From a virus, in the IMG/VR virus record IMGVR_UViG_3300025301_000071, positions 1 through 30,287 of that record: a stretch of 30,287 nucleotides of DNA; one strand, written 5' to 3'. Positions 2,761 to 22,995 of the stretch are shown here, one piece after another. The translations under genes and the position numbers were made by a program. The notes beneath the pieces were generated by a model. That model was not told the origin of the DNA, made no database searches, and worked only from the letters and a program-made list of their open reading frames with translations. Position 1 is the stretch's first letter. Every line of letters begins with the position of its first letter.

Positions 2761-2830
2761 GGATCGGCGCAGCACGGCGCGGTTGCTCAGGACGCGGATC
2801 GGCAGGTCGTGGCGAGGCAAGGCAAGGTAA
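2761..2830 (+). repeat. Cryptic pentanucleotide-periodic array 1
   Basis: Fourteen contiguous 5-nt units can be read without any gap, from GGATC, GGCGC, AGCAC to GGCGA, GGCAA, GGCAA, GGTAA. Position 1 is G in 12 of 14 units and position 3 is C in 10 of 14, while the other positions vary. The array starts 14 bp after the TerL stop and ends 30 bp before the ATG at 2861. An A-rich leader with GGAGG follows it. It is non-coding. Confidence 0.8.
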
Positions 2831-2860
2831 CAACGTAAGGCAACAACGGAGGAAAAGAGA

Positions 2861-3457
2861 ATGACAACAGCAGCAGAATCAACGAAAATGTTACAGGCAA
2901 CAGTAAGGCTCAAGAGTGCATCGCCGTATTCGCAAGGCAAGCACTACGACAAAGTAATGGTCCCGCTTGACCCCGAGAACGAGAGCGCGGGGGACTACGA
3001 AAAAAGAACATGGAGGAATCGGCTACACGTCACACCCGACGGATTTGTATTTATTCCCCAGCAGTCACTACACAAGTCTGCTATTGCCGCGGCAAAGTAT
3101 ACCGGCGACACGATACCGGGAAAAGGAAAAAAGACGTGGACCGCTAAATTGCAGTCTGGGCTTATGTGTATGGAACCTATTGTGCTACCTGTTCGCGCTG
3201 ATGATGTTGATGGAGAATGGCTATTTGTCCCCAGCGACGGCAAGCCCGGCGGATCTCGCCGCGTATCCAAGTGCTTTGGATATATTCCCGAGTGGTCAGG
3301 GGATCTCAATTTGACGATCCTTGACACGATTATCACAGAGGAGATCTTGTTTAGATACTTTGAACGCGCCGGGCGCTTTATCGGGATAGGGCGGTTTAGG
3401 CCGGAGCGTGGCGGATTTTATGGACGATTCACAGTTGAAAGCGTCAAGATTTTTTAA
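2861..3457 (+). CDS. Cassette protein A, unrecognised; faint RAMP-like features
   Basis: A 198-residue protein with a strong upstream GGAGGAAAAG. I cannot assign it to a named family. An N-terminal strand (LQATVRLKSASPYSQGKHYD) is followed by FVFIPQQSLHKSAIAAAKYTG (about 64-84). The glycine-rich C-terminus GIGRFRPERGGFYGRF is near 174-189. This order (first strand, an IP-x-x-SL helix, terminal G-rich loop and strand) recalls the RAMP fold of Cas5/Cas7/Cas6 proteins, which bind RNA. That is an inference from motif layout only. Codon use is AT-richer than in the flanking packaging and head genes. It is preceded by array 1 and followed 1 bp later by array 2, suggesting a mobile accessory cassette. 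Confidence 0.75.
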   Translation: MTTAAESTKMLQATVRLKSASPYSQGKHYDKVMVPLDPENESAGDYEKRTWRNRLHVTPDGFVFIPQQSLHKSAIAAAKYTGDTIPGKGKKTWTAKLQSGLMCMEPIVLPVRADDVDGEWLFVPSDGKPGGSRRVSKCFGYIPEWSGDLNLTILDTIITEEILFRYFERAGRFIGIGRFRPERGGFYGRFTVESVKIF

Positions 3458-3458
3458 C

Positions 3459-3533
3459 GGCGTGGCCGAGCTGAGTAAGGCGTCGCCGCGCAAGGCGAGA
3501 TAGGGCGGGATAAGGCAGGCAAGGCCAGGAAAC
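3459..3533 (+). repeat. Cryptic pentanucleotide-periodic array 2
   Basis: Fifteen contiguous 5-nt units in register, beginning GGCGT, GGCCG, AGCTG, AGTAA and ending GGCAG, GCAAG, GCCAG, GAAAC. Position 1 is G in 11 of 15 units and position 3 is C in 10 of 15. The array begins 1 bp after the stop of the preceding gene and ends 17 bp before the ATG at 3551. The spacer contains AGAAAGGA as ribosome site. Stops in the sequence argue against coding. Confidence 0.78.
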
Positions 3534-3550
3534 AACAGAAAGGATTAACA

Positions 3551-4069
3551 ATGAGCGAAGAACAGGTACAACAATTCAAAGTGCAGCCCAATTATAGTGT
3601 TGAGTCGTCACTACTCATCGCAAAATTGAACAAAGGCGAGATCGGCGACATCCTGACCGATGAGGAGCTCACAGAAATAGCGCGCATTCCGTGCAATGTA
3701 GGCGGCAAGGGCTATGGATACCTACAGACCGCGATCCGGTATTGCGAGCGACAACCGCCCGGGGAGCGGCGAGTGTGGAAGCGAGTCAAGGGGAATAACA
3801 TGATTAAATGCCTTGATTCCGATGAAATTATCAACCACGCGACAGGGGGGATGCGAGGTATACATCGTAGAGGCAAGCGAATAGCTAGGCAAGTTACCGC
3901 GATCGATCTGCCAACGCTGGAAAATGGGAAGAAAAGCGAAGCGCTTGCGTTGATTTCGCAGGCGGCGACGTTGGCCTCGTTTGCCCACGGCCGCACAACC
4001 AAGATGTTACGTGATAAGAATGTGAAAAAGAAAATTGACATGAAATTACTAGTTGATGCGATGAAATAG
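3551..4069 (+). CDS. Cassette protein B, unrecognised, basic and helical
   Basis: A 172-residue protein with AAAGGA 7 bp before the ATG. No family recognised. The middle part is strongly basic (RRVWKRVKG near 75; GIHRRGKRIARQV near 103-115), and the C-terminal third looks alpha-helical (SEALALISQAATLASFAHG), so a nucleic-acid-binding helical protein is plausible but unproven. Base composition is AT-richer than the structural genes on either side, matching protein A. It lies between arrays 2 and 3, so both proteins share the same type of leader. It may be co-inherited with protein A. Confidence 0.75.
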   Translation: MSEEQVQQFKVQPNYSVESSLLIAKLNKGEIGDILTDEELTEIARIPCNVGGKGYGYLQTAIRYCERQPPGERRVWKRVKGNNMIKCLDSDEIINHATGGMRGIHRRGKRIARQVTAIDLPTLENGKKSEALALISQAATLASFAHGRTTKMLRDKNVKKKIDMKLLVDAMK

Positions 4070-4078
4070 ACTTTAATA

Positions 4079-4188
4079 GGCGCGGCAAGACACGACTTAG
4101 CTTGTCGGGGCCGGGCACGGCGAGGAATGAATCGGCAAGTAGAGGCAAATCAAGACAGGGCATAGCGTCGCTAGGCAAGGCAAGTGAA
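4079..4188 (+). repeat. Cryptic pentanucleotide-periodic array 3 (longest)
   Basis: Twenty-two contiguous 5-nt units in one register. Exact GGCAA occurs five times, among degenerate versions such as GACAC, GTCGG, GGCGA, ATCAA and CGCTA. Position 1 is G in 18 of 22 units and position 3 is C in 18 of 22. The array starts 9 bp after the stop at 4069 and ends 26 bp before the ATG at 4215. The intervening A-rich stretch contains GAAAGGG. Confidence 0.85.
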
Positions 4189-4751: not shown

Positions 4752-6794
4752 TTGGGCTTATTGGATTTATTCAGACGGCGCCGACCACAGGCGCGCGCGC
4801 ACCCGTCGAACCTCAACGATCCCGATCTGATCGCGATGCTGGGCGGCGGCATGGATACGGCCGCGGGGATCGCAATGAACGAAACCGCCGCGCTGAGCAA
4901 CGCCGGCGTATGGGCCGCGGTGAAGACCAACGCCGAAACCGGGGCGATGCTCCCTAAACACGTCTTTAGGCGTACCGCGGGCGGCGACAAGGTGCGCGAC
5001 TTCGGCCACTCTTTGCAGCGCGTGATCCACGTACAGGCCAACCCTATACAGAGCGCCTATGAGATGTGGTCGGTATTTTTCGCCAATTTACAGCTAAGGG
5101 GTAGCGCATACGCGCAGATCATACGCAACGCCGGGGGCGATGTCTCCGAGCTCTGGCCGATCCCGGCTGATAAGGTGGCAGCGACGCGCCAGGGCGATCG
5201 CCTGAGCTTCACCGTACGCACCAAGGGCGGCGCCGAGGTGCCCGTCGAACAAGGCAACATGCTCTACATCCACGGCTTTCGATTTCAGGGCGAGCGCGGG
5301 ATCAACCCGATCCAAATAGGTAAAGACTCCCTCGCGCTTGGCGTGGCCATGGAAAAGTACGGATCGGGCTTCTTTGCGCGTGGCGGCCGGCTGAGCGGCA
5401 TACTTGAGATCGTTGGCGATCTCTCCGAAGAGCGGCAAGACGCGATCGCCAATCAATTCGATGACGCCTACGGCAGCGTAGAAAACGCCCACAAGACGCT
5501 AGTTGCCAAAGAGGGCACCAAGTACCACCAGATGAGCGCACCGCCCAACGAGGGCCAGCTATTAGAGGGGCGCACATTCCAGATCCAAGAGGCCGCGCGG
5601 CGCTTTTCGAGCACGCCTTCGCGATTGCAAGACCACAGCCGATCGACCTTTAAGAACGTGGAACAGCAGAATATAGAGTACGTGCAATACGGCCTACAGC
5701 CGATGATCTCGGCGGCCGAGGGCGCGATCAATACACAGCTTTTTACACGCGACGAGCAAGACGAGCTTTTTGTCGAGTTTAACGTCGACGCGCTACTCAG
5801 GGGCGACACCGCGACACGCTACGCGGCCTATGCCTCGGCGATCCAGCATGGTTGGATGAGCCGAAACGAAGTACGCGACCGCGAGAACCTTAACCCGATC
5901 GAGGGCGGCGACGAGCTCTTAATGCCGGTCAATATGACGCCGATCAGCGAAGGCGGCACGGCCCCGGCGCAGGATGGCGACGCCGACACACGCGCCCGGC
6001 GCACGCTAGGGCACGTACTCACACGCGCGGAGCGGGCCGACGTCGAGGGCACCATCGAGCCACGGCGCGCACTCCGCCGGCTCGGGCGCAAGACTATCGA
6101 AGACGCGGCGCGGCGGCTTGTACGCGCGGAGCTTCGGCAATTGCGGGCGCTTGTCAAAAAGCACATAGGGCGGCGCAGCGCGGCGGATCTACAGCTTGCG
6201 CTGGAAGAATTCTACGGCAACCGCGGCGAGTTACCGGAAATTATAGCCAAGACGCTCGGGCCAGTCTTCGAGGCGTACGCGCTAGAGGTGGCGGCGGCGG
6301 CGGCGGGCGAAGTCGGTGGCGCGGTGCCCGAGCTTGGCGAGTTTGTCGAAAAGTATGCCGAAGCCTACACAGCCCGGCACGCGGGATCGCACCTTGGGCA
6401 GCTTCTCGCGATCATGCGCGAGGAAAACCCCGAAGACCAAGCCGAGGCGATCGAGACGCGCCTCGCGGAGTGGGAGGCGGGCCGCAACGAGGGCGAGGGC
6501 ACGGAGGCGGCGGAGAAAATAGGCGATCGCGAAGCCGTCAAGCTCGGCGATGCTATTGCCGGCGTAGTCTTCGCGGCGGCTGGCGTGACTAGCTTTATCT
6601 GGATCGCGAATGCGGGCGCGTGCCCGATATGTAACGAGCTCGACGGGCGCGTCGTCGGGCGTGAGCAGGTATTCGTAGAAAGCGGCGACACCGTGACCCC
6701 CGAATCGGGCGACGCGGCACCCTTAACGACACGCACGAACGTGGCGCACCCGCCACTACATCAAGGCTGCGATTGCACACTCGCGGCGGCATAA
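4752..6794 (+). CDS. Portal protein fused to a MuF-like C-terminal domain
   Basis: A 680-residue protein starting at TTG 4752, giving MGLLDLFRR, a typical HK97-family portal N-terminus; a stop at 4725 excludes other starts far upstream. Residues up to about 410 form the portal, the dodecameric ring through which DNA enters and leaves the head. The remaining 270 residues are charged and helical. They end with CPICNELDGRVVG (about 624-636) and PLHQGCDC near the C-terminus. This Cys pair, LDG and terminal His/Cys pattern is that of the MuF/SPP1 gp7 minor head protein domain. In many phages this is a separate gene immediately downstream of the portal. The ribosome site is weak (TATAGGG). Confidence 0.9.
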   Translation: MGLLDLFRRRRPQARAHPSNLNDPDLIAMLGGGMDTAAGIAMNETAALSNAGVWAAVKTNAETGAMLPKHVFRRTAGGDKVRDFGHSLQRVIHVQANPIQSAYEMWSVFFANLQLRGSAYAQIIRNAGGDVSELWPIPADKVAATRQGDRLSFTVRTKGGAEVPVEQGNMLYIHGFRFQGERGINPIQIGKDSLALGVAMEKYGSGFFARGGRLSGILEIVGDLSEERQDAIANQFDDAYGSVENAHKTLVAKEGTKYHQMSAPPNEGQLLEGRTFQIQEAARRFSSTPSRLQDHSRSTFKNVEQQNIEYVQYGLQPMISAAEGAINTQLFTRDEQDELFVEFNVDALLRGDTATRYAAYASAIQHGWMSRNEVRDRENLNPIEGGDELLMPVNMTPISEGGTAPAQDGDADTRARRTLGHVLTRAERADVEGTIEPRRALRRLGRKTIEDAARRLVRAELRQLRALVKKHIGRRSAADLQLALEEFYGNRGELPEIIAKTLGPVFEAYALEVAAAAAGEVGGAVPELGEFVEKYAEAYTARHAGSHLGQLLAIMREENPEDQAEAIETRLAEWEAGRNEGEGTEAAEKIGDREAVKLGDAIAGVVFAAAGVTSFIWIANAGACPICNELDGRVVGREQVFVESGDTVTPESGDAAPLTTRTNVAHPPLHQGCDCTLAAA

Positions 6795-21910: not shown

Positions 21911-21948
21911 GCCCGCGGCGCGCCGCCATCGCGTCGCGGGCATTTTTA
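21911..21948 (+). terminator. Rho-independent terminator of the late operon
   Basis: GCCCGCG at 21911-21917 pairs with CGCGGGC at 21935-21941. The stem extends inward by a G-U pair and four further pairs to about 12 bp with a 7-nt loop, and is followed by ATTTTTA. It separates the rightward late operon from the convergent integrase gene, whose stop lies in the T-tract. Confidence 0.85.
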
Positions 21949-22995
21949 TCGCCTCGGCGGTCTAAACTCTAGCACCTTGGGATCATCGGGCGGCGCGAGC
22001 TTCGGCAGCGTCGCCCGGTCGATGTCGGCGTCGTACGGCTTAAGGTGGCCGTAAAGCTCCGTCACCGACGTGTGACTATGCCCCATCCATCGCCCTATCT
22101 TGAAAAGGTCAACGCCCGATTGGGCGAGCCGCGACGCGAAAGTATGGCGGAGCGTATGGGGGTGGATGTCGAGCTCGGCGGCCTTGCAGACCGCGGCAAA
22201 GCCTTTGCGAACGTCGAACCTATACCGATACTTTCCCGGGAGCTTGTGTGGCGCGATGAGATACCCCGACGGCTGGGCGTACGCACGGATCACCGCCTCA
22301 AGGTCAGCCGAGAGCGGCACCGCCCGATCCTCGCGATCCTTGACCTCGAAGCCGGGGCCGCTTTGCACCTGGACGATCCGCGCCTCGAAGTCGAACCAAT
22401 CCCAACGCGCCGCAACGGCCTCACCTTTTCGGAACCCGGCGAAAATGCCGAGCGCCCAGAAAAAGAGCTGATCCGTACCGAGGTCGGCCGCCGCCGTCAG
22501 CCCCCGCACGCATTCCGCATCCGTCAGCCACTTGACCGCCTTTTTGTGCTCGGGCAACCGCTCAGCGCCGGCGAAGGGATTAGGGCCGCGTAGTATCCCC
22601 TGCTTGATCGCCCTATTGAAAACCGATTTAAGCGCCGTCAGCGACTCATTCACCGACCGATTCGAGACCGTGAGCCTATACGCGCCCTTGTATGCCTCGA
22701 TGTGCGCAAGCGTGGTGCACGAGGGGGTACGAGCGCCCGAGGTGGCCGCCATGCGCCGCAGCGCCCTCACGCGGCTTTCTATCGTCTGCGCGGCGCGGTG
22801 CCCTTCGGCCCATTGCAGGTAGTGATCGATCAGCGCATCCCATGAGAGCGCACCGGCCGGCTCGGCGTCGACGTATTGCTCAAGCAAGGCCCGGGCCTCA
22901 CGCGCCGACGTAGTGCCGAGGGACTTGTCGACCCAACGATCGCCGCGCTTAAAGCGGATATAGTAGACCGCTCCGCGCTTTTTGAGTGAAGCCAT
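21946..22995 (-). CDS. int: Tyrosine recombinase integrase
   Basis: A 349-residue phage integrase that joins attP and the bacterial site. The N-terminal region (RGAVYYIRFKRGDRWVDKSLG) is the arm-binding domain, followed by a core-binding helical domain. In the catalytic domain one sees GFRKGEAVAARW (Arg near 204), VKDREDR, HTLRHTFASRLAQSG (His-x-x-Arg), WMGHSHTSVTELYGH with the second His and the nucleophilic Tyr. The set is complete, so it should be active. AAAGGGGA precedes the ATG. It is leftward, near the tRNA-derived attachment site at 23632, and may share a transcript with the upstream secreted-protein gene. Confidence 0.95.
   Translation of the reverse strand: MASLKKRGAVYYIRFKRGDRWVDKSLGTTSAREARALLEQYVDAEPAGALSWDALIDHYLQWAEGHRAAQTIESRVRALRRMAATSGARTPSCTTLAHIEAYKGAYRLTVSNRSVNESLTALKSVFNRAIKQGILRGPNPFAGAERLPEHKKAVKWLTDAECVRGLTAAADLGTDQLFFWALGIFAGFRKGEAVAARWDWFDFEARIVQVQSGPGFEVKDREDRAVPLSADLEAVIRAYAQPSGYLIAPHKLPGKYRYRFDVRKGFAAVCKAAELDIHPHTLRHTFASRLAQSGVDLFKIGRWMGHSHTSVTELYGHLKPYDADIDRATLPKLAPPDDPKVLEFRPPRR

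Follow-up and report, generated by a model that had tools for sequence, protein, structure and literature searches.

The DNA analysed here, referred to as the window, is a 30,287-base phage fragment (IMG/VR record IMGVR_UViG_3300025301_000071) in which a gene for the terminase large subunit lies upstream, and a portal gene downstream, of the locus described below. Between these two genes are three arrays with a 5-nt period and two open reading frames, all five on the plus strand. Array 1 (2761-2830; 14 units) is followed by an open reading frame for a 198-aa protein (2861-3457), array 2 (3459-3533; about 12-15 units) by one for a 172-aa protein (3551-4069), and array 3 (4079-4188) contains 22 units. 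An open reading frame on the minus strand at 21946-22995 resembles a tyrosine integrase, as judged by eye.

The period-5 information of arrays 1, 2, and 3 was 42.6, 32.0, and 66.8 bits, respectively, against shuffle means of about 10 bits (sd about 4). In agreement with the signal anticipated in the earlier note, the observed score was matched in 0 of 5000 dinucleotide shuffles for each of the three arrays, and the top-scoring 75-nt segments of the whole 30 kb fell within arrays 3 and 1. The coordinates given in that note were reproduced, as were its unit numbers (14, 15, and 22), G at position 1 in 41 of 51 units, C at position 3 in 38 of 51, and GGCAA as the commonest unit (n=7). Its description of positions 2, 4, and 5 as variable held for positions 4 and 5, but position 2 proved conserved too, with G in 35/51. 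Each unit is composed of a triplet and two free bases (NN), the triplet being GGY in 24 and RRY in 35 of the 51 units. Similarly, the single unbroken register that had been assigned to each array does not apply to array 2, in which a 1-nt shift of register follows unit 12 (GGCAG, GCAAG, GCCAG, GAAAC).

The NN string of array 1 reads TC GC AC GC TG AG GC TC AG GT GA and then AA AA AA, which is probably the start of a constant 3' tail. The last two or three units of array 3 (AA AA AA) are probably tail as well, and A-rich unit ends (AA AA) recur ahead of the tail in several relatives. Unit 6 of array 1 (CTCAG in the window) begins with C at position 2786, where the near-identical records L006 and L007 carry the consensus G. 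A promoter and terminator search on the window gave nothing above chance, and an Rfam search of the window gave no match. The three arrays are real and very probably functional.

Searches of Pfam and NCBIfam with the 2861-3457 product found no named family, and its only PHROGs match was phrog_4652, of unknown function. A profile built from eight aligned relatives matched one solved structure, the Vipr protein of phage SUSP1 (PDB 36pp), with an E-value of 3.5e-14, and a 23-member profile of the family matched the same structure (3.5e-13) with the C-terminal G-loop aligned. This G-loop, FIGIGRFRPERGGFYGRF in the window, is conserved across the family. The AlphaFold (AF2) model of the protein (pLDDT 82, pTM 0.77) matched the Cas7 of a type VII CRISPR system in Foldseek (E 8e-8), and a structure comparison placed Csm3 at Z 9-10. 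Judged by the profile match, the conserved residues, and the modelled fold, the open reading frame is a Vipr homologue with a predicted RAMP fold of the Cas7/Csm3 type and is called vipr below. A tblastn search with the Vipr of the window found none in named phages; the divergent L016 protein alone reaches Viprs from named phages of the enterobacterial, pseudomonad, and actinobacterial groups.

The earlier note knew of no name for the feature. It was described in April 2026 as VIPR (Vipr, vap, and vrRNA) in a preprint on Escherichia phage SUSP1 and a Pseudomonas fulva prophage (PMC13142463), the one preprint naming a pentanucleotide-array feature that a full-text literature search returned. 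According to its main text, Vipr is an ancestral RAMP, and VIPR, which represses rival phages and mobile DNA, is presented as a weapon of phages from which CRISPR may have descended (PMC13142463). The vrRNAs are given as about 100 nt long, co-purify with Vipr, and consist of 9-16 YNNGG repeats and an invariable, structured 3' tail; a fixed triplet is combined with two hypervariable bases, and double-stranded DNA is recognised with a 1-nt skip on the codon wobble (PMC13142463). In both the SUSP1 and the P. fulva system, the vrRNAs were shown to be expressed and an RNP to form, and the skip rule and repression were established (PMC13142463). The main text further distinguishes seven VIPR types and six vap families (vap1-6), reports that some vrRNAs are aimed at other VIPR systems, and names staggered and hammerhead-interspersed arrays (PMC13142463). 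As a positive control, the same array detector was applied to the SUSP1 locus, and it returned four array regions, of which one precedes and three follow the genes, in agreement with the layout in the preprint (PMC13142463). The VIPR trait of being encoded mainly by phages and proviruses fits the window, a virus record with flanking terminase and portal genes.

The predicted structure of the 3551-4069 product showed a winged helix followed by helices (pLDDT 92), corresponding to an N-terminal winged helix of the AGT/MGMT type and a helical bundle. The family profile weakly matched the DNA-binding domain of O6-alkylguanine methyltransferase, and scores in the structure comparison were no more than middling; the matches to the N-terminal part included winged-helix domains. 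A homologue of this gene adjoins vipr in 62 of 82 loci, and several of the remaining loci end at a contig edge. Co-occurrence, profile, and model suggest a vap-like gene, which occupies the place of vap (VIPR-accessory) and encodes a predicted winged-helix protein.

The vipr loci surveyed numbered 82, comprising the window and 81 from IMG/VR, a few of which are near-duplicates. Period-5 arrays flank vipr in all 82, including an array upstream of the gene in relatives as in the window; homologous genes lacking an array, the contrary case raised in the earlier note, were not found among them. In the control, 37,081 60-nt segments inside vipr genes reached a maximum of 25.9 bits, and none attained the threshold of 33. 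The commonest triplets among the relatives were GGC, GAC, CGC, GGT, AGT, and AAC, as extracted in the RRY register, which covers loci with another consensus only partly. A purine-purine-pyrimidine triplet is kept in many loci despite the shift in base composition (GGC, GAC, AGT/AAT), with AGT/AAT in AT-rich phages and GAC in L009 and L010. Relatives carry several consecutive arrays and also arrays past the last gene. About seven to twelve consecutive arrays lie beside vipr in L045 (4090-5082), L059 (3566-4393), and L086 (3548-4246), pointing to large guide repertoires. In the AT-rich loci L012 (2575-3155), L014 (3700-3970), and L015 (3728-3985), ARTNN blocks of about 100 nt are separated by similar ccccctaaaaaattt elements, which are possibly another processing or start signal.

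The loci L009 and L010 have flanks that are 96-100% identical and near-perfect GACNN arrays (L009, 3798-3975 and 4561-4628; L010, 3838-3976 and 4561-4624) with GAC in 82 of 86 units, and their NN strings are unlike. The arrays also differ in length, the upstream one having 35 units in L009 (GAC in 33) and 27 in L010 (GAC in 25). Such differences are typical of an array that carries information and turns over fast, and the guides look as if they had been rewritten. The hypervariability of NN refers to this pair, as the comparators of the window itself are near-identical records only.

These observations bear on the possibility that the RAMP binds the arrays as leader elements and so regulates its own operon in a TRAP-like manner, without any guide function. 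Every array of the window directly precedes a start codon, and the RAMP would bind at 5-nt steps in this case too. However, relatives show serial arrays and arrays beyond the last gene, NN is hypervariable between near-identical phages although regulation through the triplet needs no such variation, and the vrRNAs of homologous systems are reported as guides (PMC13142463). We consider an autoregulatory leader highly improbable.

A small RNA element lies between the arrays of L016, Gordonia phages Trine and MakoManhole, Mycobacterium phage LittleE, and Mycobacterium prophage prophiBWHA-1. It is composed of a 5-bp acceptor-like stem, a linker of about 10 nt, and a 6-bp T-arm with the loop UUCGANU, followed by RCG. 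Arrays punctuated by this minihelix were located at 3771-3815, 5020-5072, 5140-5195, and 5252-5305 in L016, 3066-3340 in L185, 2229-2410 and 3685-3875 in L186, 1638-3135 in L187, and 2348-2395 in L188. Ten distinct elements keep 50/50 acceptor and 60/60 T-stem pairs with many compensatory changes, and the pairing level was reached in 0 of 2000 trials with re-dealt 3' strands; since stem boundaries were set manually in sequences showing the stems, this level arises partly by selection. The minihelices are probably processing sites for RNase P and RNase Z. Array spacers resembling tRNA are not mentioned in the main text of the preprint (PMC13142463).

The minihelices also bear on the idea that the arrays act as DNA sites, namely iterons or operators spaced at half-turns, to which an oligomeric protein such as the winged-helix product would bind. 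Five base pairs correspond to half a helical turn and the 3551-4069 product resembles a DNA-binding protein, but covarying, tRNA-like separators in the actinophage arrays are an RNA feature, and Vipr homologues bind the array transcripts as RNA (PMC13142463). Operators, one of the roles proposed in the earlier note, are unsupported, and DNA sites of this kind are very improbable. Least credible of all are decayed simple tandem repeats, functionless products of slippage, which would suit the imperfect triplets of the window and the GGCAA units adjacent to each other at array 3' ends, but not the recurrence of arrays beside vipr in 82/82 loci with differing triplets (GGC, GAC, AGT/AAT) and NN. 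All three explanations account for less than VIPR does and are rated low.

Targets were sought by decoding the arrays under the 1-nt skip, which for array 1 gives the predicted target TCNGCNACNGCNTGNAGNGCNTCNAGNGTNGA. For the arrays of the window, seeds of 8-10 units with a 1-nt skip yielded no convincing or full-length target. Units 2-11 of array 3 had no matches in IMG/VR; its units 3-10 and 3-11 had 3 and 2 matches, respectively, in viral and bacterial contigs without convincing extension past the seed. Units 2-9 of array 1 gave 72 seed matches and units 2-9 of array 2 gave 8, none of which extended, and the L010 array decoded in the same manner had no match.

Among the relatives, the 12-unit vrRNA of L065 (3574-3650) matches the antisense of vipr in L009 (4180-4215) and L010 over 10 consecutive units under the 1-nt-skip rule. 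The vipr of L179 (1212-1247) is matched at the same 10 units despite different skipped bases, and in those of the matched vipr genes that were checked the skip falls on the third codon position (wobble). At the corresponding site of its own vipr, L065 matches in 7 of 12 units, a mismatch that is expected if the system must spare itself. By a rough count, about 0.005 chance matches of 10 units are expected in the searched pool. Similarly, the L073 vrRNA has a wobble-aligned match of 8 consecutive units within the L030 vap-like gene. On these matches it is plausible that the L065 vrRNA targets the vipr of other phages, that is, VIPR aimed at VIPR. A comparison of skip rules 0-3 over a small pool of loci gave a weak result, with no clear excess of skip 1 over shuffles, so the 1-nt-skip rule rests on single matches in the present data; the large raw count of skip-1 matches is biased, as it includes loci retrieved with the seed itself.

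Taken together, the window very likely comes from a temperate siphovirus-like phage and contains its VIPR locus, in which the arrays would be vrRNAs serving as guides on the RAMP against rival DNA. The present analysis contributes to this reading the arrays, the homology and predicted fold of the RAMP, their co-occurrence, the NN hypervariability in relatives, and a plausible target of one relative. Of the roles suggested in the earlier note, two are favoured, an RNA to which an oligomeric protein binds at 5-nt steps and a guide-like RNA: a Cas7-like RAMP gene adjoins the arrays, and in the literature such arrays are guide RNAs (PMC13142463).

For the window itself we infer expression, processing, the binding of one protein per unit, a target, and an effect. 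The three arrays would be transcribed from the late-gene region and trimmed to vrRNAs of about 70-110 nt. Copies of the RAMP would line the vrRNA, one per 5-nt unit, each gripping the conserved triplet and leaving the two variable bases exposed. Jointly, these dinucleotides would recognise the double-stranded DNA of a rival, be it a phage, a prophage, or a satellite, by pairing two bases and skipping one, usually the codon wobble base, and transcription would be blocked where the DNA is bound. The winged-helix accessory probably aids DNA binding.

We tentatively propose, at somewhat under even odds, that the window belongs to a branch with a wider code, in which any purine-purine-pyrimidine triplet (GGC, GAC, AGT/AAT) may act as the anchor and vrRNAs of at least 20 units may form a guide that reads about 60 bp, and that a sister branch in actinophages may free its vrRNAs through tRNA acceptor/T-arm minihelices cut by host RNase P and RNase Z. 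Neither the wider code nor the minihelix release is stated in the main text of the preprint (PMC13142463). The kind of system is already known, although only for months; the features that merit further study are the relaxed triplet, the length of the arrays, and the minihelices. A reading of the raw sequence without tools reached the same feature as the VIPR report independently. The IMG/VR relatives show how far VIPR is spread and how much the anchor triplet may vary, and near-identical phages with different NN content raise the question of how new guides are written.

Among known systems, TRAP (trp RNA-binding attenuation protein) is an oligomer that binds GAG/UAG triplets at steps of about 5 nt. 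The window arrays share this spacing of triplets and, as proposed here, binding by an oligomer; however, their consensus triplet is GGC/RRY rather than GAG/UAG, and the protein has a predicted RAMP fold and no Pfam hit, and there is no trp operon. The Cas7 proteins of class 1 CRISPR-Cas systems (Csm3 and type VII Cas7) have the same predicted fold, that of the backbone RAMP coating the guide RNA, whereas the window has pentanucleotide arrays instead of CRISPR repeats, a single RAMP gene, and two free positions per five in place of five per six. Compared with the published VIPR systems, the triplet of the window is looser than that of SUSP1 (GGY in 24/51, RRY in 35/51) and that of relatives is GAC or ART; the locus is flanked by terminase and portal genes; and the arrays, with 14, 12-15, and 22 units as counted in the DNA sequence, extend in array 3, and up to about 35 units in relatives, beyond the range of 9-16 reported in the main text (PMC13142463). 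The likeness to VIPR lies in a RAMP protein homologous to SUSP1 Vipr, a neighbouring small gene of DNA-binding type that completes the minimal locus of vipr and vap, and phage-encoded intergenic arrays in which a conserved triplet alternates with two free bases.
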